64,000 nucleotides of DNA from Candidatus Poribacteria bacterium (GTDB lineage: Bacteria; Poribacteria; WGA-4E; WGA-3G): contig JAJDUH010000071.1 of the NCBI GenBank assembly GCA_022826805.1, positions 16,947 to 80,946 on the forward strand, given 5' to 3'. Position numbers and translations under genes: made by a program. The notes below the pieces were generated by a model, which saw nothing but the letters and a program-made list of their open reading frames with translations, was not told the origin of the DNA and did not search any database. This document shows positions 14,701 through 37,799 of this stretch, piece after piece; position 1 is the first letter of the stretch; every line of letters begins with the position of its first letter.

Positions 14701-14844
14701 GCGTAAAAGCGAAAGGTCAACGAAAAAGACGTGCTACGCGCGTTATCCAAAGCGCGTAAGCCCAACCAACGGACGGGCTGGGTATACGGAAAGGTCCTTC
14801 ATTTTCCAAACCGACCCGACCGAACCGCAAGGAACATTAAAAAT

Positions 14845-15816
14845 ATGAAAAAAACGATTACTATTTTTGTAATTGTCATTATGACCTGCCTACTCACATG
14901 GCGGTTTGTTCAGTCCGATGGTCATGAACAATCCATGCCGGCTGTGGACGAAAGCCAGGTAATTTTGGCAGCCTACAAATGGAACGACAAATCCTATGAG
15001 ATCTCGCTGGCAGACTTAAACGCCGCCATCGCTGAATTGCCTGTCTACCGGCAACAGAACTATGAGAACAGAGAGGATAAAGCCGAGTATCTCGAGGAAT
15101 TAATAGAGGAACGTCTCAAAATCCTACGGGCTACTGATGAAGGGTTTGATACGCTCCCTGAACACCTCAAGAAGCTCGAGGATTATACGCATCAGCTCAT
15201 GGTTGAGAAATTAACCGAGGCTGAAGTCGATGCCAAGGTCGTCTATACCGATGAAGAGCTCATGGCTTATTATCAAGAAAATCTCAGTGAGTATATTGAG
15301 GATGCCAAAGTTCGCGCAACCTGCATCTCACTCGACGATGAAGACCTTGCTTATGAAACGCTTGATGCTATCAAAGCTGGAAAGGATATCGTTGAGATGG
15401 CAAAGGAACTCTCCGAAGCTGGAAAACTTGCTTCTGGACCCGGCACTAATCGCGATGATCCCGGCAATACCTATTTCTTCTCGAAAGCCGCTTCCGCGCG
15501 TTGGTCAGAATTCATTGAAGCCGCCTTCGCGTTAGAGGTCGGCGAAATGACAGATGCTGTCTTTGAAACCGAGGTTAACGACGCAGTCTTCTACCTCATC
15601 TTCCGTAAAGAGGAACATCAGCCTGACCGTCAGCAGGAATTCGAGGAAGTTAAAGATGATATTGTACGGACCATTGAACGCGAAAAGAAGCGGGAACGTA
15701 TCAACGAGTGGGTCGAAGAAATCTCGGCAAGAGGCAAACTGCAGACCTATCCTGAAAATATTCCAGAGCCACCGCAACCTGAAGAAGAAGCGGAGACCGA
15801 GGCGTCAGACGAATAG
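14845..15816 (+). CDS. SurA/PpiC-like periplasmic peptidyl-prolyl isomerase family protein (paralog 1)
   Basis: In-frame ATG at 14845 begins a signal-like MKKTITIFVIVIMTCLL. SurA_N-like helices and a rotamase-like region. The ORF extends upstream to 14731. Confidence 0.75.
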   Translation: MKKTITIFVIVIMTCLLTWRFVQSDGHEQSMPAVDESQVILAAYKWNDKSYEISLADLNAAIAELPVYRQQNYENREDKAEYLEELIEERLKILRATDEGFDTLPEHLKKLEDYTHQLMVEKLTEAEVDAKVVYTDEELMAYYQENLSEYIEDAKVRATCISLDDEDLAYETLDAIKAGKDIVEMAKELSEAGKLASGPGTNRDDPGNTYFFSKAASARWSEFIEAAFALEVGEMTDAVFETEVNDAVFYLIFRKEEHQPDRQQEFEEVKDDIVRTIEREKKRERINEWVEEISARGKLQTYPENIPEPPQPEEEAETEASDE

Positions 15817-15886: not shown

Positions 15887-16957
15887 ATGCTCACAAGAAT
15901 GATAACCTTCATGGGCAAAATGGATAACCGAAATCCGAAGTCAGCCCATAGCAATCAGCGTACGGGACAGAAGCAATTCTCGGTTATCTCCCTACTTTTA
16001 CTCGCGGTTATTGCTATACACCCCGTCTTCTACAGTTGTGGGGACAAGGCAATCGGTGCCGATGGCACTGTCATCGCAGAATTTGAATGGAACGGCAAGC
16101 AGCACATCACGCTTGAAGAGATGCAGCAAGAGATTAGCGAACTTCCAGAATACAAGCAGCGGCAGTATCAGGACAAAGAGGGCTTGGAAACCTATATGCT
16201 CCTTATGGCGGAGAGCCGCTTGATTCTTAACCTCGCTCGCGACCAAGGACTCAATGAAGATCCGGAAATTCTCAAGAAGGTCCAAGACTATCTCCATGAG
16301 TTGATGGTTAAGAAAATTACCGCTCAGGAAATTGACGATAAACTTGCTTTGAACGAGCAGGACCACCTCGAATACTACGAAGCGCATAAGGAAGACTACG
16401 TCCGTCCTGAACAGGTCAGGCTTATGTGTATTACCCTTACCGATAAGGTGCGAGCAGACGAAACTTACGCCCAAATCACAGGCGGAAGAGACATAGCCGA
16501 AGTCGCTCAGGAACTTTCCGACAAGGGTGAACTCGTCGGCCCCGGTGCAAATCCTGCCAGCCCTGGCGATACCGACTATATCAGTCGAGAATCCTTTCCA
16601 GCTGGAACCGAACCTTTCTTAGATGCAGCCTTCGCCGCTGAGATCGGCGCGATGCATGATGGTGTTATTGAAGTTGATGTCCAAGGACAGATGTACTACA
16701 TGATGTTCCGCAAGGATGAAGCGCGTGATGCTTATCAGAAGCCTTTTGATGAAGAGGACGTCCGTAGAAATGTAGAACGCAAGGTTGAGCGCGAAAAACG
16801 GCAGGCACTCATGGATGAGTGGATTCGCCAGCTCCGCGAGCGTGCTGAAGTCAAAACCTATATCGATCGCATTCCAGAGGCACCCTCCGAGGAGGAAGCG
16901 GCTGAGGATGAACCCAAAGCAGAAGAAACACCTGCTGAGGGAGAACCTGAAGAATAG
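15887..16957 (+). CDS. SurA/PpiC-like periplasmic peptidyl-prolyl isomerase family protein (paralog 2)
   Basis: Same architecture as 14845..15816, including ELPEYKQRQYQDKE / ELPVYRQQNYENRE. Confidence 0.75.
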   Translation: MLTRMITFMGKMDNRNPKSAHSNQRTGQKQFSVISLLLLAVIAIHPVFYSCGDKAIGADGTVIAEFEWNGKQHITLEEMQQEISELPEYKQRQYQDKEGLETYMLLMAESRLILNLARDQGLNEDPEILKKVQDYLHELMVKKITAQEIDDKLALNEQDHLEYYEAHKEDYVRPEQVRLMCITLTDKVRADETYAQITGGRDIAEVAQELSDKGELVGPGANPASPGDTDYISRESFPAGTEPFLDAAFAAEIGAMHDGVIEVDVQGQMYYMMFRKDEARDAYQKPFDEEDVRRNVERKVEREKRQALMDEWIRQLRERAEVKTYIDRIPEAPSEEEAAEDEPKAEETPAEGEPEE

Positions 16958-17111: not shown

Positions 17112-18422
17112 ATGCACATGGTCTATAAAACGGCTGCCTATCTCACCATTTGTCTGCTGCTCATTACTTATGGGCTAACAACCGGCACTGCCCGCACTTT
17201 CGACAAAATCGTCGCTTACGTCAATGACGATATTGTAACCAAACGGGAACTCGATGTCTTAGTGAACCAGCGCGCAGTGGAACTTCAGCAGATTTATCGT
17301 TTTAGTGAACGAGAAGCACGCAGCGAAGCTGAACGACAACGCCAAGAACTCCTTGACCGTCTGATCCGTCAGATGCTGCTGTTGGAGGCAGCGCTAACAT
17401 TGAAAATCACTGTTAACGACGCAGAAGTCGAGCAGTACATCCAGGAATTTAAAAATAGATACCAGATTGCAACCGACCAGGAATTCAAAGAACAATTAAA
17501 TAAAGAGGGTATGACGCTCGTCGCTTTTCGTGAACAAGCAGAACGCAATCTTAAAGCCGAGAAACTTGTGATGGGGAGAATTGTCCCTCGATTGCAGGTG
17601 CGGGACAGCGAGATCCAAACATTTTTTGAGGAGAATCGAGATCAATTGCCCGTTAAATCCGATAAAGTGGATCTGCGGCACATCTTTATCGCTTTTGAAC
17701 CGACCCAAGTTGATCGGGATACGGCTTACAGCAACGTTAAGAAAGTTCGCAACGAAGTCTTAACGGAGGGTGCTGATTTTGAAGATATCGCGAAGCGTTA
17801 CACTTCAGAGCAAAACCCTACTTCACAGGCTGGGATCCTCATAGAAGCTACCACTGATGAACTCAGCAGATTTCCGAACATATTTCAGGACGTACTAACA
17901 AATTTAGCAGCCGGTGAGGTGAGTGAACCCATTGAAGGAAACGAAGGGCTCTACCTTTTTAAAGTTGAGACAAAAGACGATAAAATGACCGCCTTTCGTT
18001 ACCTCATCGTACCACTTGAAATTAGCTCGGAGGCGATGCAAGCCGCACGCCAGCGTAGCGTTGAGATTTTCAAAAAATTAGAAAACGGAGAAGATTTTAA
18101 TACACTCGCCAAGACAAATTCCGATGATACCGATACGCGAGAAAATGGAGGCTATCTTGGAGTTCGATCCTTATCCGATCTTAATCCCAATACCCGTAGA
18201 ATCATTGAACCTCTGGCAGCGGGTGCTTATAGTAATCCCCATGAAACCGAGTCTGGACTCCACATTTTCATGGTGGACGAGCGAAACAGTCCAGACCTCA
18301 CTGATGCTGAGAAGCGACAGATTATTTCTATACTCCGTCAGCAGCGCTTTCAGGAAGAATGGAACGCATACACCGACAGTCTCATCGCGAATGCTTACAT
18401 CGAAATTAAATTGAAAGAGTAA
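17112..18422 (+). CDS. surA: SurA-type peptidyl-prolyl cis-trans isomerase
   Basis: FDKIVAYVNDDIVTKRELDVLV N-terminal signature. Two parvulin regions (DLRHIFIAFEP; DTRENGGYLGVRSLSDLNP). Confidence 0.9.
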   Translation: MHMVYKTAAYLTICLLLITYGLTTGTARTFDKIVAYVNDDIVTKRELDVLVNQRAVELQQIYRFSEREARSEAERQRQELLDRLIRQMLLLEAALTLKITVNDAEVEQYIQEFKNRYQIATDQEFKEQLNKEGMTLVAFREQAERNLKAEKLVMGRIVPRLQVRDSEIQTFFEENRDQLPVKSDKVDLRHIFIAFEPTQVDRDTAYSNVKKVRNEVLTEGADFEDIAKRYTSEQNPTSQAGILIEATTDELSRFPNIFQDVLTNLAAGEVSEPIEGNEGLYLFKVETKDDKMTAFRYLIVPLEISSEAMQAARQRSVEIFKKLENGEDFNTLAKTNSDDTDTRENGGYLGVRSLSDLNPNTRRIIEPLAAGAYSNPHETESGLHIFMVDERNSPDLTDAEKRQIISILRQQRFQEEWNAYTDSLIANAYIEIKLKE

Positions 18423-18430
18423 GAAGATAC

Positions 18431-21400
18431 GTGAAAAAGAGCCAACCCGATTTGCCTACCTATAACCAACATCGATACTCCAAGAAAAGGTGCTTAGGTA
18501 CAGGAAATGCTGCATCGCGCCGACGCTCTGTTCTTGTAAATTTCCTTTCGATATCGCGCATAAGCGTCGGTATTTTAGCGGTTGTGTGTTTCTTCTCTCC
18601 GCTACAGGTGCTTATCGCACAGGAGGAACCACAACAGGAACAAGCACCCGCTCAAACACCTGCTGAAGAAACTCAGGAACCCGACGCTGCAGAAGGAACG
18701 CAAGAGGAAGCACCCGCTCAAACACCGGCTGACGGAACAACTCAGGAACCCGATGCTACAGAGGAAACAGAGGAAGAAGGATCCGTCTCTGAACGGTTGA
18801 ATCCAGAAACCGATGTCCCTGAAGAAGGCACGGTAATTGGTGATGGCGACAATGTGTCGATGGTGGATAATTTTGTTTCGCTTCACGGAAACGCCCTTGT
18901 TAAATTCGAGGATGTCATCCTGCGAGCCGACCACATCTGGGCTGATTTCGATGACAATCTCATGCGCGCTTCGGGGAATGTTCATCTGAAGGTCGGTGAT
19001 GAAGAAACCTACTCCGATGAACTCGTCTTCAATCTTGAAAACAAAAAGGGGATCGCCAGAGATGGATTTACGTATAGTGATCCTTGGTACTTTGGCGGCA
19101 GTGAGATCTTTAAGATAGAGGAAAATAAATCTTATGTCCGCGGCGCGACTTTAACGACCTGTTCCCTGGAACATCCGCACTACTATTTTAGCGTCACTGA
19201 AGTCATCGTTCGAATGAATGAGGAGCTAATTGCCAAGAACATTGTCTTACGCATTGGTGGATTTCCGCTCTTCTATTTTCCTGCTATTCGTCGAGATCTT
19301 CGTAAAGGAAAGATTGCCAAGATTATCGTCAAAGTCGGAACTGATAGTTATCAGGGCCCCTACCTCAGCATTATCCAACCGCTTGTACGCAAACGCCGCT
19401 ACGATGCAGCGCTCCTTTACGACAGAAGCGCGCGACGCGGACAAGGGGTCGGATTTGAAGGAAAGTATCGCTTTAATGATACAAAATTTCAAGAAATACA
19501 CATCCCTATTCCTCCTGATGCAACGCCGAATCAACGCACCAAATTGGAAGAGAAGGCGCAGGAATTACAAGACCGCCTCGACGGAGAATATGATCGTTAT
19601 TGGCTAAAGCAGCTTTTCCTTGAATATAAAATCACCGATGACGATGTAAAACGTGCTAAAGAGCGCGCCGAGGAAATCCGCACGCAGACCTTAGAGGAAG
19701 CCGCCGATTTCGCACAAATCGCACAAAGCAACTCTGACCACTCCGATACCCGCTACGAAGGCGGTGATATAGGGTTCCTTGTTCCCGGTGAAACCGATGA
19801 AGATGGTAACCCAAAACTCGATCCTGTGCTGGAGGAAGCCGCCTTCGCTTTACAAGAAGGCGAAATTAGTTCTGTCGTACAAACTGAATCCGCTTTTCAT
19901 ATCCTTAAGGCAGATCGTGTTATTGACGTTTACGGTGAACGTGAAGTCAAACTCCGTCGTATTGACATCAACATCACCGCAAGCGAAGAAACCGAAACGA
20001 TGCTTCGCGAATTAGCCGATGATCTGCTACTGCATGCCCATGAAGGTGAAACCTTTGAAGCACTTAAAGAACGTGCCGAGGTCCTCTCTGATTATGTTAA
20101 TACGACCCTAACCGAGATCAATGAAGGGGAAGGCATGATGCTAAATGAGATGGCGTCTTCTTGGCAATACTCCGTCAGACGTATGGAAAATCCTGGCGAT
20201 GTAACTGAACGCCGTCCGGTTTCCACACCAGAAGGATTATACATCTTTCAATTAATCGAAAAAGAGCAAACCCCTTCTTTTGAAGCACTCGCTGAAGGAT
20301 TCGAGGCGGAATGGGATGCTTTTTACGAAGACATAATGAATCCCGCACCAGAGGAGACAGATGAGGATACTGATACAGAAGAATCCAAATCCGGTGATGT
20401 AGAAGAAGATACTGATGCCCCACCTACAGTCCCGGAAGCGACACAGGCAATTGATACGACTGATACAGACACGGAAATTCAAAATGCCGAGGTAGTTACA
20501 CCAGAGGATGAACAAGAAGACGAGGCACAGGAAGAAATCCAAGAGACGGAAACAACTGAGAATCAAGAAGGTGTTGCACCTCAAGAGGAAACCCAAGAAG
20601 CAGAGGCAACTGAACCAGAAGGTGAACAAGAAAGTGAGTCCCAAGAAGGCACCGAAGACGCAGAAGCAGCTAAGTTAGAAGGTGAACAGGAAGGCGAGGC
20701 ACAGGACGAAGATGTAACCGACTCGGACGAAGAGGCCGAAGAAGAGGAAGCCGAAGAAGGTGTTTATAGGAAGCACGGCTTTCGCGGGAGGTGGGAAGAC
20801 CCGAGTGCCGTGGCTTCGGAAGCACAACGGTTATATGCCGGGGACCACAGTACGCGCCCCATTCGAACGAGTAAGTCATTTCGACTTATCAAAATTGATC
20901 GAAAGCGAGCATATCGAGGAGACATCTACCTCTACGGTGCTGACCGCTACTCTTACGAACGGCAGAACGCAACCCGGATCGGTAGAAGTTGGATTATGCG
21001 GTGGGCACATACCCAATCCTTCTTTACCCCTTGGGACAGCCGAGAAGCCGGCAGACGTCCTATCAGTTTTAACGGTAGGACAGAACTGCGCGCCCTTAAC
21101 TACAAAGAGGAATTGCAGCTCCCCGGTGAATCTACACTCAACACTTTCGGAATACTCACCTATGGTACTGCTTTCTCTGCATTTAGTCCACAGGATGTTG
21201 ATGAGGACGGCAATCTCAGGTTTTCGCGCGAAACTATCGGGGACTTCACTGGCAGGCTTGAAGTTCGGCACATTCACGATTTCACGGATGAAGGCACCCC
21301 GTCGTTGCAGAAACTCCCACAACTCACTTTGAACTTTTCACGGATGCGTCTGAGTGCTTTCCCGCTCTTTGAAACCCTCAACGACGGTATGCTATCCATC

Positions 21401-22591
21401 GCCGAGAGGTTTGCAACTGAAACACCGTTCCTTTCAATGTTTACATTCCCAACGCTCGAAAGCACCAGTCTCGATTTAGATGTTGAACTCGGAAACTTTT
21501 TTAGAGAAGTCTATCGAGGCAAAGCCGGTGAGGAAAGAGACGTATTTCTACAGACAGTGGACCTTGGGTTTGATGTTCGTAAGCAATCAACGCTCCTGAT
21601 TACACCGCTCCGCGAACTCCAGTTAAACCTTTATCTCAACACAAACGCTATCTATCATGACCGGGATCAAGCGCAGAATAGGAACATTGTACGTGGGGTT
21701 TACAGTATCAACGCAAACGCTACAAATACCCTCTTCCGCATCTTCGACGTTAGTTATATCCCCGGACTGCGAAAATTGCGCCACGAAATGCAGTCATCGC
21801 TCCGCTTTGATTATCAGCCTCCAGTTGACGAGAATGATGACCTCTATCCTTTCGGACCCAGCACCTATTTCTATGAACGAAAGATGCTTACGTATAACTT
21901 CAATACAGGCATTGAAATCAAGACCCCACGAGGTCAATCACCACACCGTGTCTTATATTTTGATACACGGCTTACCGCTGATTTTACTGATTTTGACCCC
22001 TTATATAAGCGTAAGTATGAGCCTATTGAAAGCGATTTTACATTTATACCGCTCCCCAGTCGAAATCTAAACGTTACGGTACGCTTTACCCACGACCCAA
22101 ATCCACATCCAGTTGACGAAAAACAATTCAAAATGGTCGGTTTTCGTTCCAATATCCGGTACACACGACAGAGTTGGAATGTCAGCATTGGAAGTTCCTT
22201 CAGCAAACGTCACACCTCAAGGAGAGCCTCCCGTTCTATCACTGCTACTGGACGCTACCGTTTCAGCCGCAATCTTGAATTTGATGTCAGTCTCATCTAT
22301 TATCCGATTGAGAGACAGTTTTATTCACAGCGCATTATGATGACACGGAATCTTCACGATTGGAATCTCCGCATCTCTTGGAACCGTATCGGTATTAAAC
22401 GCGACGACTCGCCTTACAACAACGTCCGACAAGATTTCACATTCCAGGTTAGTCTGATTCAGGAGCCAGCAATTTCAATGGGTGTTGGCTATGATGCTAC
22501 TACTGAAACTTGGGGGGTCCGAACTGTACCGTCAGGCATGCCTTACAACGCCTTTGGTGCCGGGAGCTCACTCGGTCGGTCTTATTTCTAA
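18431..22591 (+). CDS. lptD: LptD (OstA) outer-membrane LPS-assembly protein with an internal parvulin-like region and a long Glu-rich linker
   Basis: OstA-like region (VSLHGNALVKFEDVILRADHIWADFDDNLMRASGNV; TTCSLEHPHYYFSV). Inserted DFAQIAQSNSDHSDTRYEGGDIGFL...AFALQEGEISSVVQTESAFHILKA. C-terminal barrel-like beta strands. Confidence 0.88.
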   Translation: MKKSQPDLPTYNQHRYSKKRCLGTGNAASRRRSVLVNFLSISRISVGILAVVCFFSPLQVLIAQEEPQQEQAPAQTPAEETQEPDAAEGTQEEAPAQTPADGTTQEPDATEETEEEGSVSERLNPETDVPEEGTVIGDGDNVSMVDNFVSLHGNALVKFEDVILRADHIWADFDDNLMRASGNVHLKVGDEETYSDELVFNLENKKGIARDGFTYSDPWYFGGSEIFKIEENKSYVRGATLTTCSLEHPHYYFSVTEVIVRMNEELIAKNIVLRIGGFPLFYFPAIRRDLRKGKIAKIIVKVGTDSYQGPYLSIIQPLVRKRRYDAALLYDRSARRGQGVGFEGKYRFNDTKFQEIHIPIPPDATPNQRTKLEEKAQELQDRLDGEYDRYWLKQLFLEYKITDDDVKRAKERAEEIRTQTLEEAADFAQIAQSNSDHSDTRYEGGDIGFLVPGETDEDGNPKLDPVLEEAAFALQEGEISSVVQTESAFHILKADRVIDVYGEREVKLRRIDINITASEETETMLRELADDLLLHAHEGETFEALKERAEVLSDYVNTTLTEINEGEGMMLNEMASSWQYSVRRMENPGDVTERRPVSTPEGLYIFQLIEKEQTPSFEALAEGFEAEWDAFYEDIMNPAPEETDEDTDTEESKSGDVEEDTDAPPTVPEATQAIDTTDTDTEIQNAEVVTPEDEQEDEAQEEIQETETTENQEGVAPQEETQEAEATEPEGEQESESQEGTEDAEAAKLEGEQEGEAQDEDVTDSDEEAEEEEAEEGVYRKHGFRGRWEDPSAVASEAQRLYAGDHSTRPIRTSKSFRLIKIDRKRAYRGDIYLYGADRYSYERQNATRIGRSWIMRWAHTQSFFTPWDSREAGRRPISFNGRTELRALNYKEELQLPGESTLNTFGILTYGTAFSAFSPQDVDEDGNLRFSRETIGDFTGRLEVRHIHDFTDEGTPSLQKLPQLTLNFSRMRLSAFPLFETLNDGMLSIAERFATETPFLSMFTFPTLESTSLDLDVELGNFFREVYRGKAGEERDVFLQTVDLGFDVRKQSTLLITPLRELQLNLYLNTNAIYHDRDQAQNRNIVRGVYSINANATNTLFRIFDVSYIPGLRKLRHEMQSSLRFDYQPPVDENDDLYPFGPSTYFYERKMLTYNFNTGIEIKTPRGQSPHRVLYFDTRLTADFTDFDPLYKRKYEPIESDFTFIPLPSRNLNVTVRFTHDPNPHPVDEKQFKMVGFRSNIRYTRQSWNVSIGSSFSKRHTSRRASRSITATGRYRFSRNLEFDVSLIYYPIERQFYSQRIMMTRNLHDWNLRISWNRIGIKRDDSPYNNVRQDFTFQVSLIQEPAISMGVGYDATTETWGVRTVPSGMPYNAFGAGSSLGRSYF

Positions 22592-26439: not shown

Positions 26440-26469
26440 CAACAAACCTTGCCCCAAAAAGGAAATATC

Positions 26470-28035
26470 ATGGACCCTAACCTCACTGAAATCGAGAATC
26501 GGCTCTGGAGTGCTGCCGATGAACTCAGGGCGAATTCACGCCTCCGCGCCTCAGAATACTCTACACCTGTGCTCGGGTTAATTTTCTTAAGATACGCCGA
26601 TCACAAATTCACACAGGTCGCACAAGAGATCGACAGCGAGACCGCTACGGGTAAGCGAAGTAGGACGGATCCGCGAGTGCAGTATCAAGCGCGCGGCGCA
26701 TTCTACTTACCCGATAACGCACGATTTCAATACCTCCTCAATCTGCCGGAGAGTGCGAACATCGGACAAGCCATCACTGACGCTATGAAGGCAATTGAAG
26801 CGGAAAACCCTCAGGTCAACGGAGTCCTACCCAAGACGTACAATCGCCTTGAAAAGAGCACCCTCTTTGAACTCTTACGTATCATGGAGCAGATTCCCAT
26901 GGATATTGAAGGGGATGCGTTCGGAAAGGTCTACGAGTACTTCCTCGGCAATTTCGCTATGAGCGAAGGGCAGCGCGGGGGTGAATTCTTCACGCCTACC
27001 TCGCTTGTTAAACTCATCGTTGAGATTATTCAACCCTTTCACGGTCGTATTCTCGATCCCGCATGTGGTTCGGGTGGAATGTTCGTCCAGAGTGCCGAGT
27101 TTATTCGCAATCATCAGAGCAACGGCAGACGTGGAAACATCAGCATTCACGGCGTGGAACGCGTCGCTGAAACAATCAGATTGTGTAAGATGAATCTTGC
27201 TGTTCATGCGCTTGAAGGCGATGTCAAACAGGCAAATAGTTACTACGAAGATCCGCATGACTGCTGGGGTAGATTCGATTTCGTCATGGCAAATCCGCCC
27301 TTCAATGTAGATCGCGTGGATAGGGAACGGATCAAAGACGATCCTCGGTTTCCGTTCGGTATGCCCCGTGTCGATAACGCCAATTACCTCTGGATTCAGT
27401 TATTCTATAGTTCGCTTTCCGAGTCTGGGCGTGCAGGCTTTGTCATGGCGAACTCCGCAGCCGATGCCCGCGCCTCTGAATTGGAGATTCGCCGCCAAAT
27501 TATCGAATCCAGTGCAGTCGATGTTATCGTCAGTATCGCCTCAAATTTCTTTTATACGGTCACTTTGCCCTGTACCCTCTGGTTTTTCGATAAGTCCAAA
27601 CGGAACAGCGATAGACACGATAAAGTCTTGTTTATTGACGCACGACACCTCTATCAGCAGGTGAGTCGCGCACATAGACAGTTCACACCCCAACAACTTG
27701 AATTCCTCTCTAATATTGTCAGACTCTATCGCGGAGAGGCACCGGAGAATCAGTACGACAGTGCAGATTTCCTCGCCTCAAAATTCCCCGATATAGAGTA
27801 TGTTGATATTCCAGGACTTTGCAAGGTCGCTACGATTGCCGAAATTGAGGCACAAGGGTGGAGTCTGAATCCCGGACGCTATGTCGGTGTCGCCGAGCAA
27901 ACCCGTGACGATTTTGACTTCGCCGAACGATTTATGGAACTCAACGAGGAGTTAGCAGTGCTGAACGCCGAAGCACATCAACTCGAAGAACGCATCGCCG
28001 AGAATGTTGCAAAGATTTTGGAGGATACGGTATAA
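26470..28035 (+). CDS. hsdM: type I restriction-modification system DNA methyltransferase subunit
   Basis: [10 protein letters not shown] (motif I) and NPPFN (motif IV) with an HsdM N-terminal domain. Confidence 0.96.
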
Positions 28036-28036
28036 T
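28007..28036 (+). promoter_or_regulatory. putative sigma70-like promoter in the hsdM 3' end
   Basis: TTGCAA (28007-28012), N18, TATAAT (28031-28036), reading toward the DUF433/DUF5615 pair. Confidence 0.4.
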
Positions 28037-28095
28037 ATCAATAACACGGTAGAATTTTGGATCAAGCAATGGAAGATGTGAAAAGGAGGTGCCTC

Positions 28096-28467
28096 ATGGA
28101 ACTAGCAAGTATTTTTGAATTTGTCAACCCCAAAACGATTCGGATTAAAGGAACACGGGTCGGGATTGAAATCGTAATTGAAAAATTTCTTGATGGTGCA
28201 AGCCCGAAGGAGATTCAGGGACACTATCCACATCTGACCCTAAAACAGATCTACGCAACAATTACCTATTATCTGTTTAACAAAAATACCATAGATGCCT
28301 ACATGGAAGCCGACCGTAAGCGGGCGGAAACTGCTTATGAGGTCCAGCGAAAAAACCCACCCTCCGGTGTGAAGCGTCTTATGAAAATAAAAGCACAGCA
28401 GGACGCCCAAAGGATGGCATCCGCGAAGAGTGATAGTGAACAGAGATCAAATTCGCTTCCTTCTTGA
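28096..28467 (+). CDS. DUF433 protein (probable antitoxin)
   Basis: AAAGGAGGT before ATG 28096. RIKGTRVGIEIVIEKFLDGASPKEIQGHYPHLTLKQIYATITYYL is DUF433-like. Confidence 0.8.
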   Translation: MELASIFEFVNPKTIRIKGTRVGIEIVIEKFLDGASPKEIQGHYPHLTLKQIYATITYYLFNKNTIDAYMEADRKRAETAYEVQRKNPPSGVKRLMKIKAQQDAQRMASAKSDSEQRSNSLPS

Positions 28468-28804
28468 TGAAAACACTTCTCATATTATCCGAGATGGCCT
28501 CAGACACAGGCACCCAGAGGTCGAAATTCGCGTTATCGGTAGTGACGGTGTACCCCCAATTGGTACAAAAGACGAGGAAATTCTTGAGTTTATTGAACGT
28601 GAGGCGTACATCCTTGTCTCATCAAATCGAAACACGATGCCTATACATTTGGAAGCACACCTTCAAGAAGGTAGACACATTCCCGGTATTTTGCTCTTGC
28701 GTCCCAGATTCTCTTATAGAGAGATTATTGATACGCTCGAACTCATCTTGTTCGCAGGTGTTCCAGAAGATTTACGGGATCAAGCAGTATATATTCCGTT
28801 TTGA
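28430..28804 (+). CDS. DUF5615 PIN-like protein (probable toxin)
   Basis: IRFLLDENTSHIIRDGLRHRHP near the N-terminus; overlaps the DUF433 gene by ~38 bp. Confidence 0.8.
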   Translation: MIVNRDQIRFLLDENTSHIIRDGLRHRHPEVEIRVIGSDGVPPIGTKDEEILEFIEREAYILVSSNRNTMPIHLEAHLQEGRHIPGILLLRPRFSYREIIDTLELILFAGVPEDLRDQAVYIPF

Positions 28805-28849
28805 CTGTTCATGAATCGTGCACAACCCACGTAGCGAAAAGGATTCACA

Positions 28850-29809
28850 ATGTCTGACGAAACAAAACCTGATTTACCTACAACATCCGAAGGTGCATCA
28901 AATACTGCACTTGATACTGCTACTGATCTGGTTTTGGATGCAACTATTCCTGCGCCAATCAGACAAAATGTGCTAAAGGCTTTGGACAGATTAGGTTCTG
29001 CTTTGATTGATATACCTGTTGGAGCTCTTGAACGGAGATCTTCCGAGAAGCGGGCAGAATCGGAATCGCGCATTAAAATTACAGAGGCAGTTAATGCTCA
29101 AATTGTCCAGCAAATAAAGGTAGACCCAGAATTCCCACAGAGAGCATCAAATACATTTGCGAAGAAAATTCTTCGAGAACAGTACAATCTCGAGAAAATC
29201 TTAGGTTTCGCTACAGATATACTTAAGAGGAAAAAATATGATAATTCAACAAACCAACAGGCTGAAAGTGAAACGGAAAAGTCAATTGACGATGATTGGT
29301 TTAACATTTTCGAGAAAGAAGCAAGTCAGAAAAGTACTGAAGAGGTGCAGCGTCGTTTTGCCCGTGTATTAGCAGGTGAAATTGAGAAACCAGGATCGTA
29401 TTCAATAAAGGCTGTGAAAACCCTCGGTGAACTGGATCAAGAGGCTGCAACATTGTTCAAAAAACTGTGTTCAACGTGTATTGCTTTTGAGAATCTGACT
29501 GATGGATGTGTGCTTGATGCTAGAGTTCTCCCTTTGGGCAAAGAGGACCATAAACAAAAAGGTGAGGTTGGCCGATACAGCTTGAGTTCTTACCAAGAAG
29601 ATGTGCTAATTGAGTACGGGCTAATTCGTTTAATCGAAGAACATTCCTTGTATCCCTATAATTTATGCATAGAGAGTCTGAATAACCCAATGCCTCAGTC
29701 TTTTCGACACCAAGGGCGAGATTGGTTTTTCGATCCTTTCGATCCGATTCAGGAATTTAGGTTTCAAGGTATTGCTTTTTCCATAGTTGCCCGTGAATGC
29801 TCCGAATGA
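28850..29809 (+). CDS. DUF2806-like protein, prematurely terminated relative to the downstream in-frame sequence
   Basis: EEVQRRFARVLAGEIEKPGSYSIKAVKTLGELDQEAA is DUF2806-like. The same frame continues to a plausible C-terminus at ~29968. Confidence 0.7.
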   Translation: MSDETKPDLPTTSEGASNTALDTATDLVLDATIPAPIRQNVLKALDRLGSALIDIPVGALERRSSEKRAESESRIKITEAVNAQIVQQIKVDPEFPQRASNTFAKKILREQYNLEKILGFATDILKRKKYDNSTNQQAESETEKSIDDDWFNIFEKEASQKSTEEVQRRFARVLAGEIEKPGSYSIKAVKTLGELDQEAATLFKKLCSTCIAFENLTDGCVLDARVLPLGKEDHKQKGEVGRYSLSSYQEDVLIEYGLIRLIEEHSLYPYNLCIESLNNPMPQSFRHQGRDWFFDPFDPIQEFRFQGIAFSIVARECSE

Positions 29810-29864
29810 CTCTTTTCTGAAGCAAATACCTCTTGTATTGCTTTTTCCATAGTTGCCCGTGAAT
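29769..29864. repeat. 30-bp direct repeat with 66-bp period at the DUF2806 3' end
   Basis: GTATTGCTTTTTCCATAGTTGCCCGTGAAT at 29769-29798 and 29835-29864. Confidence 0.9.
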
Positions 29865-29989
29865 TGTTCCGCATAGTGGATCAAGAACCTATGCCAGAGT
29901 ATACTAAAGACCTCAAGCAATACTTTGCAGGGCAGAACCTACAAATGGTTGAAGGACCAATCCAATGATTTAAAAACTCATGAAATGCA

Positions 29990-31276
29990 TTGAAGGGTGG
30001 GAATGTGATTCAAAACTTATCCAACAACTGGAAGATAGAAAAACTTGACGACGTTATTCTTGATATTATTGACTACCGTGGTAAAACTCCCAAAAAATTG
30101 GGTGGGACATGGTCCGAATCAGGTATTATCGCTCTTTCTGCAATGAATGTTAAACAGGGTCAATTAGTAAACCTAGAAAAGGCAAAATTTGTAAGTGAAG
30201 ATTTGTACCGAAAGTGGATGAAGTCAGAAATTGCTAAAGGGGACATTCTGATGACCTCAGAAGCACCCCTTGGTGAAACTTACCTCGTTCCAGATGATAG
30301 AAAGATCTGTTTAAGTCAAAGATTATTTTGTATTCGAGCAAACTCAAGTATTATCCTTCCACAGTTTCTTTTTTATTTTTTTAACACGCCAATGAGTCGT
30401 GGGCAGATTGACTTAAGAGCCACAGGGACAACTGTACTGGGAATTCGACAACCCGACCTTCGGGAAGTACCAATAATTGTACCACCTCTCCCAACCCAAC
30501 GCAAAATCGCCGCCATCCTCTCCGCCTACGACGACCTCATCGATAACAACACCCGCCGCATCAAAATCCTTGAAGACATGACGCAGACCCTCTACCGAGA
30601 ATGGTTCGTCCACTTCCGATTTCCCGGACATGAGAACGTCCCGATGGTAGAGTCAGCGTTGGGACCGATACCTCAGGGATGGAAGATTTTTAAATACGCA
30701 GACATCGTGGATTTATCAAGAAAAGGGATTAATCCAAGCAAATTTCCATATGAAATCTTTGCCCATTTCAGTATACCCGCGTTTGATGGTGGTTGTATGC
30801 CGATTCTTGAAACAGGAAATTCAATTAGAAGTTCTAAATACTTGATTGCTGAAGAGTGTATTCTTGTGTCTAAACTGAATCCTCGTATTCCTCGCGTCTG
30901 GTTTCCATTCTTAGAGACAGAACATCGCGCAGTAACTTCAACTGAATTTCTCGCCCTGAACCCTAAACCACCCGTTGATTGTGTGTTCTTATATAATTTG
31001 TGCCGTTCACCTGAATTTTCTGCTGAATTGGCAGTTCGTGCGTTAGGAACTTCAGGTAGCCATCAACGAGTCAAACCTGATGACTTTTTCAACATGTTGG
31101 TTCTTATCCCAACAAAATTTCTTTTGAATAGTTTTTGTGATAAAGTTAGGCATATGTTGAATATCAGCAATACTCTCCGTTTAAAAAACAAAAACCTTCG
31201 CCAAACCCGCGACCTCCTCCTCCCCAAACTCATCTCTGGCGAGATTGACGTATCCGAACTTGATCTTGACGAGTAG
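29990..31276 (+). CDS. hsdS: type I restriction-modification specificity subunit
   Basis: Two TRD-like halves with conserved regions PPLPTQRKIAAILSAYDDLIDNNTRRIKILEDMTQTLYREWFVHFRFPG and RQTRDLLLPKLISGEIDV. Start codon uncertain. Confidence 0.93.
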   Translation: MKGGNVIQNLSNNWKIEKLDDVILDIIDYRGKTPKKLGGTWSESGIIALSAMNVKQGQLVNLEKAKFVSEDLYRKWMKSEIAKGDILMTSEAPLGETYLVPDDRKICLSQRLFCIRANSSIILPQFLFYFFNTPMSRGQIDLRATGTTVLGIRQPDLREVPIIVPPLPTQRKIAAILSAYDDLIDNNTRRIKILEDMTQTLYREWFVHFRFPGHENVPMVESALGPIPQGWKIFKYADIVDLSRKGINPSKFPYEIFAHFSIPAFDGGCMPILETGNSIRSSKYLIAEECILVSKLNPRIPRVWFPFLETEHRAVTSTEFLALNPKPPVDCVFLYNLCRSPEFSAELAVRALGTSGSHQRVKPDDFFNMLVLIPTKFLLNSFCDKVRHMLNISNTLRLKNKNLRQTRDLLLPKLISGEIDVSELDLDE

Positions 31277-31287
31277 CCCAAAAGCGA

Positions 31288-31316
31288 TTGACAGATACAA
31301 CGCAACGGTGTATAAT
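31288..31316 (+). promoter_or_regulatory. perfect consensus sigma70 promoter
   Basis: TTGACA (31288-31293), 17-nt spacer, TATAAT (31311-31316). Confidence 0.65.
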
Positions 31317-31450
31317 TTACAATAACGTCATTAGGAGGAGACTTATGCGCGATGTCAACACTTGGCAATTTGTTGGTTATATTGGAAAATGCCAGCATAA
31401 GTAGGTAGAGCGGCTTAACCATCCGTAGTATTCAGGAAGGAGGAAATGGA

Positions 31451-31690
31451 ATGAATGTAACCACTGAATTAACAACTGATCAAGAAGTGCTGCCAAAAGA
31501 TAAGCAGCGAATCCCGCATGATGCTACAGAGCAAGCAGATACTGAACAAAAGGCACTTATGAACTACGCCGAGACACAACTTCGGAAATTAGCGGTGTCT
31601 CGGGGCTTGGATTGGGATATGATGACTGATGAGGCGCGCATAGATTTTGTTGATGACCTCATCCACGAGGACCGCGAGTGCAGCCGATAG
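31451..31690 (+). CDS. small acidic protein, probable antitoxin partner of the following PIN gene
   Basis: 79 aa preceded by AGGAAGGAGGAAATGG; overlaps the PIN ORF by 13 bp. Confidence 0.6.
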   Translation: MNVTTELTTDQEVLPKDKQRIPHDATEQADTEQKALMNYAETQLRKLAVSRGLDWDMMTDEARIDFVDDLIHEDRECSR

Positions 31691-32082
31691 CCGTTTACGA
31701 CACAAATATTCTGTTTTCAGGCACCGGTTGGAGCGGAACTCCTTATCACTGTCTTGAATTAGTACGGCAAGACAGAGTTGAGGGCGTAACCTGCATAGAA
31801 ATTTTAGATGAATTAACAGAAAAATTCTCTACCAAGCTCAATTTCTCGCCAACCCAAACGAGAAAAAGGATTGACTACCTTCGCGATTTCCTGCGGCTGG
31901 TTACGATTAACAATACACTCAAAGTTGTTAGCGCAGATCCGGACGATGACAAAATAATTGAGTGTGCGGTTATCGGTTCAGCAACCCACATTGTCACTGG
32001 AGATGCACATTTGTTAAAACTTAGAAACTATCAGAATATTCAGATCATAACAGCTGCAGAATTCTATGCTCAGTTTTCATAG
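31678..32082 (+). CDS. PIN-domain protein (putative toxin, COG1569-like)
   Basis: VYDTNILFSGTGW, ADPDDDKIIECAV, THIVTGDAHLL. Confidence 0.85.
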   Translation: MQPIAVYDTNILFSGTGWSGTPYHCLELVRQDRVEGVTCIEILDELTEKFSTKLNFSPTQTRKRIDYLRDFLRLVTINNTLKVVSADPDDDKIIECAVIGSATHIVTGDAHLLKLRNYQNIQIITAAEFYAQFS

Positions 32083-32130
32083 GAACAACAACGACGGTGT
32101 GTAATTTACGGCAAGGCATCGGAGGAAATC

Positions 32131-32412
32131 GTGCAAGAATCTTCTATCATCCAATACTTCTCTGAAAAAAGTTTTGAACAAGGCATCGAGCAAGGCATCG
32201 AACAAGGTATCGAGCAAGGGAAAAAACAGCACGCTGTTGAAGCAATACTCACAGTGCTGGAGGTCCGATTTCAGCCTGATGTTGCAGAGAAACTAAGGCC
32301 TTTCCTTGGGGTGATTGACGATTTGGAACGTCTGGATCACTTACATCGCGTCGCTGCACGAGCGTCAAATATTGATGAGTTTACGCATGCCCTCTTAAAT
32401 CTTGAAAATTGA
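32131..32412 (+). CDS. small protein with EQGI repeats, resembling the C-terminal tail of Rpn/PDDEXK-family transposase-like proteins
   Basis: FEQGIEQGIEQGIEQGKKQHAVEAILTVLEVRF; overlaps the next gene by 4 bp. Confidence 0.55.
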   Translation: MQESSIIQYFSEKSFEQGIEQGIEQGIEQGKKQHAVEAILTVLEVRFQPDVAEKLRPFLGVIDDLERLDHLHRVAARASNIDEFTHALLNLEN

Positions 32413-33620
32413 AGAAGCCTAATCCTGATATAAAGGTAAAACCCATGTCTGAACAGAAGGCGTTCTTAGAGAAGGTTCATATCAAAAACTTCCTGAGTTT
32501 GCGGAATATTTCGCTTCCGCTAAAACCTCTGACAGTTCTTGTCGGTCCCAATGCAAGCGGGAAGTCTAATACTTTGCGTGCTTTGCACCTTTTCAAGGGG
32601 ATCCTGAGCGTTGACCTGCCTCCTACGACGTTTAATTTTATCCCAGATCAGGTTTGGGCAGGTGGAGCTGACCATATCACTAGTGAACTGCACGCCAGAG
32701 TGAAGAAAACACCAGTTCAGTATAAACTGGTGTTTAAATCTGAGAATGAAAATCTTTCTGTTGATGAAGAATTATTGGTTAACGATGTAAAGATTATCTC
32801 AATTCAGAATGGAGAAGGGACAGTTCAGGATGAAGGCGGTAAAAACAGAACAACGTACAAATCAAATAAACTCGCTTTGAAGTCCGCTGGTGATTACGGA
32901 AATAAGCCAATCACTGGTGCCTTGGCAGAATTTATTCGGGAATGGGAATTTTATGACGTTCAACCAGATCACATACGAACTAATTCTAATAGATTCCCTT
33001 CTGATGCCAAAGATATTCAGGAATCGCTAAAGCTTAATCGTTATGGTATGAATGTCCCAAACATACTCTGGAACTGGTATGAACATACACCGGACGATTT
33101 TCGTTACGTTAGTGAAGCCTTAGCTGCTGCCACGAATATCAATATAGATTACCACAAAATTGATGGGGAATTCCAACTCTGCCTCCTTGAAGGTTACAAA
33201 GAGCCGATCCCTTTTATAAATGCTTCTGATGGTACGCTGCGTCTTCTGGCATACCATACTTTACTCAATCTGCCGGAATTACCCCCCCTTATTGCCATTG
33301 AGGAACCAGAGCGGAGCCTGCATCCTCGTGTGCTGACAGATATTGCCCATGTACTTGAACGACTTGCTGAACGAACACAAGTTATTATCACAACACATAG
33401 TTCTCAGTTTCTTGATGCTTTTGATTCAAAAAGATTATCGGATTCCCTTGGTGTTTTACTCTTACGCAATCGTCCCGGACTTGGCACAGAAGTCATCAAC
33501 GTTGAGGATATCCGCGAGAAACGAGAATCACTTGACGGTTGGATAGCCGACTTTGGGATCGGTAGTGCCGTTTTCGATAGCGGACTGCTGCAAGATATCA
33601 TGGAGGAACCGATATGCTAA
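32409..33620 (+). CDS. AAA_21/OLD-like ATPase
   Basis: VGPNASGKSNTLRAL (Walker A), LIAIEEPERSLHP (Walker B), ITTHSSQFLDAF (H-loop). Confidence 0.9.
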   Translation: MKKPNPDIKVKPMSEQKAFLEKVHIKNFLSLRNISLPLKPLTVLVGPNASGKSNTLRALHLFKGILSVDLPPTTFNFIPDQVWAGGADHITSELHARVKKTPVQYKLVFKSENENLSVDEELLVNDVKIISIQNGEGTVQDEGGKNRTTYKSNKLALKSAGDYGNKPITGALAEFIREWEFYDVQPDHIRTNSNRFPSDAKDIQESLKLNRYGMNVPNILWNWYEHTPDDFRYVSEALAAATNINIDYHKIDGEFQLCLLEGYKEPIPFINASDGTLRLLAYHTLLNLPELPPLIAIEEPERSLHPRVLTDIAHVLERLAERTQVIITTHSSQFLDAFDSKRLSDSLGVLLLRNRPGLGTEVINVEDIREKRESLDGWIADFGIGSAVFDSGLLQDIMEEPIC

Positions 33621-34150
33621 GCGTGAGAATTTGGAATTTGCAATCCGATTGCGATGCTAAAGCAGTCAAGTTTTTGGAAAATGAATTCTTGAGATTTAGG
33701 CAGCTTGAGTATTTGGCTATCCGTACAGCTGGCAGGAATGCACTTCGTAGGTGCCACAAAAAAGGAACACCTGTAAGGGACAGTCTTAAAAGAGCGATTC
33801 AGCACTACCTCAAGCAAGACGACTATATTATTTTTGTTGTTGATTCCGACCAGAAACAAGAGTTAACGTCACTTGCCGATGAGATTAGACAAATCGTCAA
33901 AGATTGCAATTTATCTAACAAGGTATTTTTCGTCGCAGACATTCAAGAAGGCGAATTTGCTGCACCAACGCAGTGGCATCGCATTATTTCACGTTTTCGC
34001 ACCGAGGTTGAAAGTGAGCGCAAACGGCTTCGGGAAGAATGGGATAGGGCCGTCGCACACTTCCACAATGCATTTGCCGATATGCCAGAGGAGGAAGTGA
34101 TGCGTCATTTTGAGGAAGCACTCGCAGAGGTGAGGCGTGAGCGAGCATGA
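33614..34150 (+). CDS. DUF4276/Toprim-like or RloB-like ATPase partner protein (tentative)
   Basis: DDYIIFVVDSDQKQE acidic motif and position directly after an AAA_21 ATPase with a 7-bp overlap. No clean EGxTE motif. Confidence 0.5.
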   Translation: MLSVRIWNLQSDCDAKAVKFLENEFLRFRQLEYLAIRTAGRNALRRCHKKGTPVRDSLKRAIQHYLKQDDYIIFVVDSDQKQELTSLADEIRQIVKDCNLSNKVFFVADIQEGEFAAPTQWHRIISRFRTEVESERKRLREEWDRAVAHFHNAFADMPEEEVMRHFEEALAEVRRERA

Positions 34151-34628
34151 GCAACGATGGCGCGTTTACCGAGCAATATTTGACACCAATATCTTTGTCC
34201 GGGCATTGATTCAGAAGGAAAATCTTGCCAATCATCTGATCTCGCTTTGGCTTGAGGGTCGATTCATTCTTGTGCTATCACAGGCTATTGTTACTGAAAT
34301 TCGGGGTGTTTTGTTACGTCCCGCTCTTATGCGAGAACTCCAGTATACACGCACAGAAGCCATGCGTCTCATCAACCTGTTGCCCCAAGCAAGTATTGTT
34401 GAGGTTACCACATCGGGTGAATTATGTCGCGATCCCAAGGATGATAAATTCGTTGATTGTGCTATCTCAGGACGCGTCCAATTCTTAGTCTCAACTGATA
34501 ACGATCTCGTAGATGATGCTGAACTTAAGAGAGCCTTGTTTGAGTTTGGCGTTGAAATCGTCGAACCACTGGATTTCTTAGAAAAGATTCGAGAGGCAGA
34601 AATCGACAGTTCTGACTCTGGTCAGTAA
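34137..34628 (+). CDS. PIN-domain protein (putative toxin, COG1569-like)
   Basis: AIFDTNIFVRALI, CRDPKDDKFVDCAI, VQFLVSTDNDLV; overlaps the previous gene by 14 bp. Confidence 0.87.
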   Translation: MSEHEQRWRVYRAIFDTNIFVRALIQKENLANHLISLWLEGRFILVLSQAIVTEIRGVLLRPALMRELQYTRTEAMRLINLLPQASIVEVTTSGELCRDPKDDKFVDCAISGRVQFLVSTDNDLVDDAELKRALFEFGVEIVEPLDFLEKIREAEIDSSDSGQ

Positions 34629-34634
34629 TGAACC

Positions 34635-37600
34635 ATGCACAACCCATACAGCGAAGATGAACTCATAGAACAACCTGCCATCGCGCTCCTCACAGAAATG
34701 GGATGGGAAACGCAGAACGGCTACAGCGAATTCAATCAGGGACGCGAAAGTCTGCTCGGTCGGCAGACAAAATCTGAGGTCATCCTCACCGCTCGACTCC
34801 AACCCGCACTACAACGCTTCAATCCCAAAGCGGCACAAGATAGCATTATCAAGGCAATCGAGGAACTCACGCAGTCCCGCTCCTTTATGAGTCGTGTCGA
34901 AGCCAATCGCGAGATTTACAGCCTCCTAAAAGACGGCGTAAAGGTTACCATCACCAATCCAGATGGCGAAGGCGAGACCGTTGAAGTGCTTCGGATCATT
35001 GACTGGGAAAACCCGAAAAATAACGATTTTTTCGTCGCATCCCAATTCCAGATCACCGGGGACATGTACACAAGACGACCCGATATTGTCTGTTTCGTCA
35101 ACGGGATTCCATTAATCCTAATGGAGTTCAAACGGATTGATGTGAACCTCCGTGCCGCCTACGACGATAATCTCCGCGACTACAAAGACACCATCCCACA
35201 CCTCTTTTGGTATAATGCCTTTGTTATTCTCTCCAACGGCACGGACAGCAAGGTCGGAAGTCTTACCGCCGAATGGGAACACTTCGCCGAATGGAAACGT
35301 ATCCAGCGTGAAGATGAACCACCGACGGTCTTTTTACAGACAATCTTGGAAGCACTTTGTACACCCGAACGATTGCTTGATGTTGTAGAGAATTTTATCA
35401 TGTTTATGGAGGTACAAGGAGGATTAGTCAAAATTCTCGCCAAGAACCATCAGTACCTCGGTGTCAACAATACCATTGAATCACTCAAGCAGATCGAAAA
35501 TAACCAGGGCAAACTTGGGGTCTTTTGGCATACACAAGGCAGCGGAAAAAGTCTCTCAATGCTCTTTTTTGCTCAGAAAGTCCTTAGAAGGATACCGGGA
35601 AACTGGACATTCGTCGTCGTAACCGATCGCGCGGCATTGGACGACCAAATCTATAAGACCTTCGCAAGTACAGTTGGTGTCCTGACACAGCAGGAGGTTC
35701 ATGCGGAAGATATACAGCATCTCCGCCAACTGTTAAGAGAAGACCATCGTTATATCTTTACGCTCATCCACAAGTTCCAGACCCAAGGTGGCGAAAGGCA
35801 TCCTGTTCTCTCAGAGCGGTCAGACATCGTCGTTATCACTGATGAAGCACACCGGAGCCAATACGATACACTGGCATTGAACATGCGTACTGCGCTCCCT
35901 AACGCCGCGTTTGTTGCGTTTACCGGTACGCCACTCATGACTGGTGAGGAAAAGACGAAATCTGTCTTTGGTGACTACGTGAGTGTTTACGATTTCAACC
36001 AATCTATCCTTGACGGTGCAACCGTTCCACTCTACTATGAAAACCGTGTGCCAACCCTACATCTGATGAATGAAGACTTTAACAAAAACATCGAGCAAAT
36101 TCTTGAGAATGCAGAACTGGATGAAACGCAAGAGGTAAAGCTCGAACATGAGTTCGCCAGAGAGTATCACCTTATCACACGCGATGAGCGTTTAGAAACC
36201 ATCGCTGAAGACATCGTATTCCACTTTATGGGCAGAGGCTACCAAGGCAAAGCCATGGTCATCTCAATAGACAAAGCCACTGCCGTCAAGATGTTCGACA
36301 AGGTTCAGAAACATTGGAAGCAGTACATTGAACATCTAAAATCCGAGATAGCCACACAGACCGGTAGCGAACGACTCTTCTCAGAGAAACGGATTCGCTA
36401 CATGGAAGAAACGGATATGGCAGTCGTCGTTTCTCCAGGACAAAACGAGATTGATGACCTCAGCCAAAGGGGAGTGGATATCGTACCCCACCGCGCCCGT
36501 ATGAACACAGAGGATTTGGATACCAAATTCAAAGACCCAGAGGATCCCTTCCGAATCGTCTTCGTCTGTGCCATGTGGATTACAGGCTTTGATGTGCCTT
36601 CCTGTTCCACTATCTATCTTGACAAGCCCCAGAGAAATCATACTTTAATGCAGACTATTGCCAGAGCCAACCGTGTCTTCGGTGATAAGAACAACGGTTT
36701 AATTGTAGACTATATCGGTGTTTTCCGTGACCTTGAAAAGGCTTTAGCGATTTATGCCGCTGGTACTGATGCCGACGGAAACCAGAAACCGATCGCAGAT
36801 AAGTCGAAATTAGTTGAAAAGCTGAAAGAGGCGATCACAGATATCTCCGAATTCTGCAAAGGTCTCGGCGTTGACTTGGCGAAAATTGATACAAGTGAAC
36901 CTTTACAACGCATCAGTCAAATTGATGAGGCGATGGATGCCATTTTGGAAAACGATGAAACAAAACGAGACTATCTGCAATTAGCCGCGAACGTCACTAA
37001 ACTATACAAGGCGATTCTGCCCGACCCCGATGCACATGAATTTACCAGAATTTGCCAACTTATCTATGTCATCGCACAAAAAATCAGAAATTTAACGCCA
37101 CCCGCTGACATCTCTGGTGTAATGACAGAAGTCGAAACCCTACTTGACCGCTCAATCGCACCTGAAGGTTATCTTATTGAGGCACCGCTTGACAGTTACG
37201 ATATGAATCAGATAGATCTAAGTCAAATTGACTTCGAGCAGTTAAGTGAACAATTTCAAACAGAACACAAACGCGTCGAGGCAGAGAGACTCAGAGGCGC
37301 GATTAACACCAAACTCACTGCGATGGTTCGTCTCAACAGAAGTCGTATGGACTATCAAGAGAAATTTGAGCAGATGATTGCAGAATACAACGCAGGCACT
37401 ATTGGGGTCGAGGATTATTTTCAGGGGCTTTTTGATTTTGTGAGTGATCTCAATCAGGAAGACCAACGCTCCAGAACCGAGGACCTCTCTGAAGAGGAAT
37501 TGGCAGTATTTGATCTTCTGACGCGCCGCCAGCCGCATCTAACCGTTCCAGAGCGGGATGAAGTGAAGGCTGCGGTGCGGGAATTGCTTGAGACACTCAA

Positions 37601-37799
37601 ACGGGAAAAATTAGTCTTGGATTGGCGTAAACGGACCCAGGCGAGAGCTGAAGTCGAGGAAACCGTTAACACTATACTTGATGATGGGCTGCCGCAACCT
37701 TACACACGAGAGCTGTTCAGTCAGAAGTCCGAGGCGGTTTATCAGCACGTCTACGATTCTTACTACGGCGAAGGGAAAAGCATTTATACCGAAAATTAA
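34635..37799 (+). CDS. hsdR: type I restriction endonuclease subunit R
   Basis: RPDIVCFVNGIPLILMEFKR (PD-ExK), WHTQGSGKSLSM (Walker A), ITDEAHRSQYD, C-terminal helicase motifs. Confidence 0.97.
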   Translation: MHNPYSEDELIEQPAIALLTEMGWETQNGYSEFNQGRESLLGRQTKSEVILTARLQPALQRFNPKAAQDSIIKAIEELTQSRSFMSRVEANREIYSLLKDGVKVTITNPDGEGETVEVLRIIDWENPKNNDFFVASQFQITGDMYTRRPDIVCFVNGIPLILMEFKRIDVNLRAAYDDNLRDYKDTIPHLFWYNAFVILSNGTDSKVGSLTAEWEHFAEWKRIQREDEPPTVFLQTILEALCTPERLLDVVENFIMFMEVQGGLVKILAKNHQYLGVNNTIESLKQIENNQGKLGVFWHTQGSGKSLSMLFFAQKVLRRIPGNWTFVVVTDRAALDDQIYKTFASTVGVLTQQEVHAEDIQHLRQLLREDHRYIFTLIHKFQTQGGERHPVLSERSDIVVITDEAHRSQYDTLALNMRTALPNAAFVAFTGTPLMTGEEKTKSVFGDYVSVYDFNQSILDGATVPLYYENRVPTLHLMNEDFNKNIEQILENAELDETQEVKLEHEFAREYHLITRDERLETIAEDIVFHFMGRGYQGKAMVISIDKATAVKMFDKVQKHWKQYIEHLKSEIATQTGSERLFSEKRIRYMEETDMAVVVSPGQNEIDDLSQRGVDIVPHRARMNTEDLDTKFKDPEDPFRIVFVCAMWITGFDVPSCSTIYLDKPQRNHTLMQTIARANRVFGDKNNGLIVDYIGVFRDLEKALAIYAAGTDADGNQKPIADKSKLVEKLKEAITDISEFCKGLGVDLAKIDTSEPLQRISQIDEAMDAILENDETKRDYLQLAANVTKLYKAILPDPDAHEFTRICQLIYVIAQKIRNLTPPADISGVMTEVETLLDRSIAPEGYLIEAPLDSYDMNQIDLSQIDFEQLSEQFQTEHKRVEAERLRGAINTKLTAMVRLNRSRMDYQEKFEQMIAEYNAGTIGVEDYFQGLFDFVSDLNQEDQRSRTEDLSEEELAVFDLLTRRQPHLTVPERDEVKAAVRELLETLKREKLVLDWRKRTQARAEVEETVNTILDDGLPQPYTRELFSQKSEAVYQHVYDSYYGEGKSIYTEN

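Follow-up and report, generated by a model that had tools for sequence, protein, structure and literature searches.

A SurA-type parvulin module inserted in the outer-membrane barrel of LptD in Poribacteria

Poribacteria – mostly sponge- and sea-living bacteria – carry a SurA-type parvulin module within the barrel of LptD, a protein that in model bacteria is essential and, as a client of SurA and BAM, hard to fold. In the window (the whole 64,000-nucleotide stretch of DNA analyzed here, in which features lie on the + strand unless noted) this LptD is encoded by one uninterrupted open reading frame of 1386 amino acids at 18431-22591, and the insert is a segment of about 455 residues (residues ~360-815; 19508-20875) between barrel strands 4 and 5. 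We favor, with a probability of roughly 0.55, the interpretation that the inserted parvulins act as a non-catalytic docking or binding arm at the periplasmic rim of LptD. The fold and the family are known, and the combination of LptD and parvulin is new within the open-access literature searched (subscription papers and preprints lay outside the search), which held no report of an LptD with a parvulin or SurA insert and nothing relevant on LptD in Poribacteria.

The first part of the protein (residues 1-129; 18431-18817), read from the sequence and variable among orthologues, comprises a signal-peptide-like N-terminus and, after it, an acidic low-complexity stretch. The periplasmic jellyroll of the OstA/LptA type follows (residues ~130-285; 18818-19285), and is defined by an N-terminal profile, hhalign, and DSSP; the best PDB match of the profile is Neisseria gonorrhoeae LptD (E=3.8e-4) with only LptA next, hhalign aligns it with Escherichia coli LptD at E=2.6e-6, and OstA_2 is matched weakly by 14 of 22 family members. 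Barrel strands 1-4 (residues ~299-359; 19325-19507), placed by alignment and by DSSP in the models, include an invariant proline at residue 317 that aligns with E. coli P246, and strands 5-26 (residues ~816-1342; 20876-22456, by DSSP) make up the remainder of the barrel. Sequence similarity of the barrel to E. coli LptD is negligible in the profile and hhalign comparisons, and the window protein alone has no match to PF04453 or PF19838 above the Pfam cut-off, but in 45 of 85 Poribacteria genomes, some of them of the same genus, this gene does score above the PF19838 (LptD_2) cut-off.

Assignment to LptD is strengthened by two AlphaFold2 models: one covers the shorter orthologue L106 (1108 residues, pLDDT 80.7, pTM 0.60), the other the window protein from residue 190 onward (1197 residues, pLDDT 74.7, pTM 0.59). 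Each has a jellyroll and 26 barrel strands, 22 of them after the insert, and 26 is also the known strand count of LptD (PMC12644819). For both models Foldseek ranks LptD structures first among PDB entries (E=1.3e-21 and 1.7e-12), above peptidyl-prolyl isomerases (PPIases) and SurA, with modest TM-scores (TMt 0.4-0.6); a search of a viral fold library gave no match. The same genome encodes LpxC, two LptF/G proteins, one LptD_N/LptA-type gene, and Omp85 genes. An LptE homologue is present in 28 of 40 relatives, and none was detected in the window's own assembly. A second canonical LptD was sought in this genome with PF04453 and PF19838 and was not found, and the 1386-residue protein is the only LptD detectable there, the presumed outer-membrane LPS translocon.

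The insert opens with a helix and contains three parvulin units. The first, P1 (residues ~383-506; 19577-19948), is recognized by Pfam as Rotamase (PF00639; residues 402-495, E=4.2e-21), and the PDB match is to PrsA (E=2.8e-10). The degenerate P2 (residues ~507-616; 19949-20278) corresponds to the second of two significant Rotamase_3 stretches and is delimited by DSSP and by alignment with SurA P2. The third unit, P3, is split: its first part (residues 617-640; 20279-20350) was recognized by alignment with the linker-free orthologues L106 and L107, in each of which Pfam finds three Rotamase stretches, and its second part (residues ~776-815; 20756-20875), defined by alignment and by DSSP in the models, ends in a strand that runs continuously into barrel strand 5 in both models. 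Between the two parts lies an acidic linker (residues ~641-775; 20351-20755) predicted to be disordered (pLDDT <50), with 30% Glu and 12% Asp over residues 641-768. Its length ranges from 7 to 162 residues among orthologues; the minimum of 7 is found in the deep-branching loci, so the linker is probably a later gain. A long acidic linker at this position (20351-20755) is confined to the derived order of Poribacteria, and it interrupts P3 near the loop that bears the active-site Cys/Asp in catalytic parvulins.

These results confirm an earlier note made from the sequence alone, which had described an OstA-like N-terminal domain, barrel strands resuming after an interruption (now counted as 4 before and 22 after), SurA-like helices and a parvulin-like segment within the barrel, a second and weaker segment (now P2), and a Glu-rich linker. 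A parvulin fold was proposed for residues ~370-530, and parvulin-type elements are present at ~389-500 and ~503-611 (window numbering) in both predicted structures. The module is larger than was described, with three units rather than two, and P3 had been missed because the linker splits it. A phylum profile matches SurA residues 110-367, the P1-P2 tandem, with E=1.3e-14; only this tandem and the short preceding helix align, and the SurA core, composed of its N- and C-terminal segments, is absent from the insert.

The earlier note had also called for a check of the parvulin active-site residues, which speaks against catalysis. Positions are numbered by Pin1 (H59, C113/D, and H157), and the alignment was guided by the Pin1 and Par10 sequences and by SurA from the E. 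coli record. In P1 the first catalytic His is Gln in the window, and none of the 68 sequences compared has His at the H59 position, which is occupied by Gln, Arg, or Glu; H157 is retained in 59. P2 and P3 are more degenerate, both catalytic histidines being gone in nearly all of the 68; His occupies the H59 position of P2 in one sequence, and the H157 position of P3 is Arg in 56. With the catalytic histidines gone and no SurA chaperone core in the insert, these alignments make it unlikely that the insert works as a prolyl isomerase. The parvulin binding fold may persist, and the loss of catalytic residues suggests that the units are probably binding modules.

The insert is a feature of the phylum. 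A survey of homologues, as had been suggested, finds a parvulin-bearing lptD in 83 of 85 Poribacteria genomes and in all 56 of good quality, including closed or single-contig genomes (G047, G080, G082, G083, and G084). No insert-free copy was seen, and the connection between strands 4 and 5 is 294-489 residues long in 67 sequences. P1 identity to the window averages 0.67, compared with 0.68 for the barrel. All 69 public loci found are from Poribacteria, although the scan used motifs conserved in Poribacteria and does not imply absence elsewhere. In a tree of P1-P2 tandems with E. coli SurA as sole outgroup, 20 of 21 inserts form one well-supported group, and support is weak for the positions of both the deepest insert (L120) and E. 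coli SurA; the instability of these two means that the tree does not name the donor. The simplest reading is one ancient insertion event, and SurA may have been the direct donor of the module. The two deepest lineages (genomes G001 and G002; loci L032, L033, and L120) have a further parvulin in the connection between strands 10 and 11, which suggests that LptD gained parvulins more than once. This additional unit is seen at L032:1-2334, in L033, and at L120:8938-12591, with 4-5 Pfam stretches in L120.

The genes directly upstream are also of the parvulin family. A surA gene at 17112-18422, encoding 436 amino acids with two parvulin domains by Pfam, immediately precedes lptD, and is itself preceded by two genes for SurA/PrsA-like single-parvulin proteins, ppi2 (15887-16957; Rotamase_2, E=1.5e-11) and ppi1 (14731-15816; Rotamase_2, E=1.3e-9). 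The order mfd-ppi-ppi-surA-lptD is kept in nearly all loci whose contig extends far enough; in 67 loci the closest matched gene upstream is surA, which in many cases overlaps lptD by a few bases, and the two genes are adjacent in E. coli as well. Elsewhere in the window, M, S, and R genes of a Type I restriction-modification system were read from the sequence at 26449-37799, with an ATPase ORF (32409) and a 319-residue ORF (28850) lying among them, as was another HsdM-like gene at 61554-63020 on the - strand. Two adjacent and very similar MacB-like permease ORFs (43072-44322 and 44332-45570) have no adjoining ATPase gene, and an 807-residue ORF at 59130-61553 on the - strand appears by eye to join a GlmU-type nucleotidyltransferase to a DUF89/ARMT1-like domain.

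In both models the insert has a long single strand on either side, strand 4 before it and strand 5 after it, and strand 4 is unbroken in each, with 23 residues at pLDDT mostly 85-94. Because the jellyroll is in the periplasm and four strands precede the insert, the turn between strands 4 and 5 is expected to be periplasmic, and on these models the insert quite probably lies on that side. A position in a surface loop, serving for example in contact with the host sponge or in closure of the barrier, was the first impression by eye and is suggested by the hhalign alignment, which pairs the segment ahead of the insert, 'KYNVRDVKFKEIKL..PED', with E. coli 'RYLSQAGAGLMELDYLPSD' in strands 4-5 and so places the insert in extracellular loop 3. 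The E. coli strands were numbered with P231 (strand 1) and P246 (strand 2), both from PMC12644819, and the lptD4213 deletion, which falls in strand 7 and loop 4 (PMC6887485), as fixed points. Loop lengths are not decisive as to side: across strands 11-26 the variable loops are on the extracellular side, as expected, whereas between strands 5 and 11 the loops labelled periplasmic are the more variable, and these share the insert's side, as a surface module would have it. We nonetheless regard an extracellular insert as unlikely, since the 26 strands and unbroken strand 4 of both models require an even-to-odd, periplasmic turn, and an extracellular one would demand that the number of strands be odd or that one had been overlooked; moreover, strands 11-26 independently set the second parvulin site, between strands 10 and 11, on the periplasmic side.

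The earlier note's idea of a chaperone domain built into its own client is borne out in part: a SurA-related module does lie within the LptD barrel, phylum-wide and just downstream of surA. Chaperone action on its own LptD is a hypothesis, under which a cis-acting assembly chaperone would bind aromatic motifs in the unfolded strands of the same polypeptide or pass them to BAM, taking over part of the work of SurA; the parvulin triplet would bind the nascent barrel or dock it to BAM and then stay in the mature translocon as part of the LPS path. Its appeal comes from the homology to SurA P1-P2, from the surA gene and two more parvulin genes that immediately precede lptD at almost every locus, from the binding of aromatic outer-membrane protein (OMP) motifs by SurA P1, a hotspot for this interaction (PMC11401910), and from the slow folding of LptD as a BAM client (PMC6887485). 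SurA binds clients mostly through its core domain, however, the main chaperone part (PMC7195389), and this is missing from the insert, as are the catalytic residues; a cis-acting arm would also be redundant because a separate and intact SurA is retained. We thus consider it the main rival, possible but rather doubtful. That the domain was gained neutrally and is inert, kept because it is harmless, would fit the degenerate active sites and the freely varying linker length, but it accords poorly with a P1 as conserved as the barrel, with zero insert-free cases, and with the extra parvulin that the two deepest lineages have elsewhere in the barrel, and we think it improbable. As to a chimera of lptD and surA arising in assembly or gene calling, a concern raised at the outset, the upstream gene is indeed surA and a collapse of neighbors is conceivable in one assembly; but 83 of 85 genomes, several of them single-contig, encode this architecture in one frame, and surA is a gene of its own upstream, which rules this out.

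We therefore return to the non-catalytic periplasmic arm as the preferred interpretation. Before the known Poribacteria diverged, a SurA-type tandem parvulin module would have entered a short turn between strands 4 and 5, such that three linked parvulin units would now sit by the jellyroll and the first barrel strands, at the predicted periplasmic rim. The units would probably bind peptides or proteins rather than isomerize them, and candidate contacts for a permanent arm of this type include the jellyroll, LptE, LptA, the co-encoded SurA and PPIases, and BAM. These contacts could serve both assembly of the barrel and the finished translocon. In Poribacteria, then, the presumed lipopolysaccharide gate of the outer membrane carries a permanent relative of its own usual folding helper. 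This LptD represents a natural experiment on what SurA parvulin domains do without catalysis, on the way BAM assembly copes with large domains within a barrel, and on how the LPS translocon can be rebuilt.

Compared with known LptD (PF04453, PF19838), the Poribacteria protein shares the OstA jellyroll, the 26-strand barrel, the conserved proline in strand 2, top Foldseek matches to LptD, and a genome with lipid A and Lpt genes; it differs in the ~455 residues added after strand 4 and in a barrel sequence that is nearly unrecognizable, with the window protein falling below both LptD Pfam cut-offs. With SurA it has in common the P1-P2 tandem, and the E. coli surA likewise adjoins lptD, but the insert lacks the core, has a third parvulin unit, has lost the catalytic His, and resides within an outer-membrane barrel. 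PrsA/PpiC-type parvulin PPIases (PF00639) are similar in fold and family match, and differ from P1 of the insert, which has Gln at the first catalytic His and mostly His at the Cys/Asp position. If it acts like a partner protein close to the barrel and jellyroll, as proposed, the insert would resemble LptE, LptM, and LptY, although these are separate lipoproteins and not parvulins, and LptE is also found in Poribacteria.
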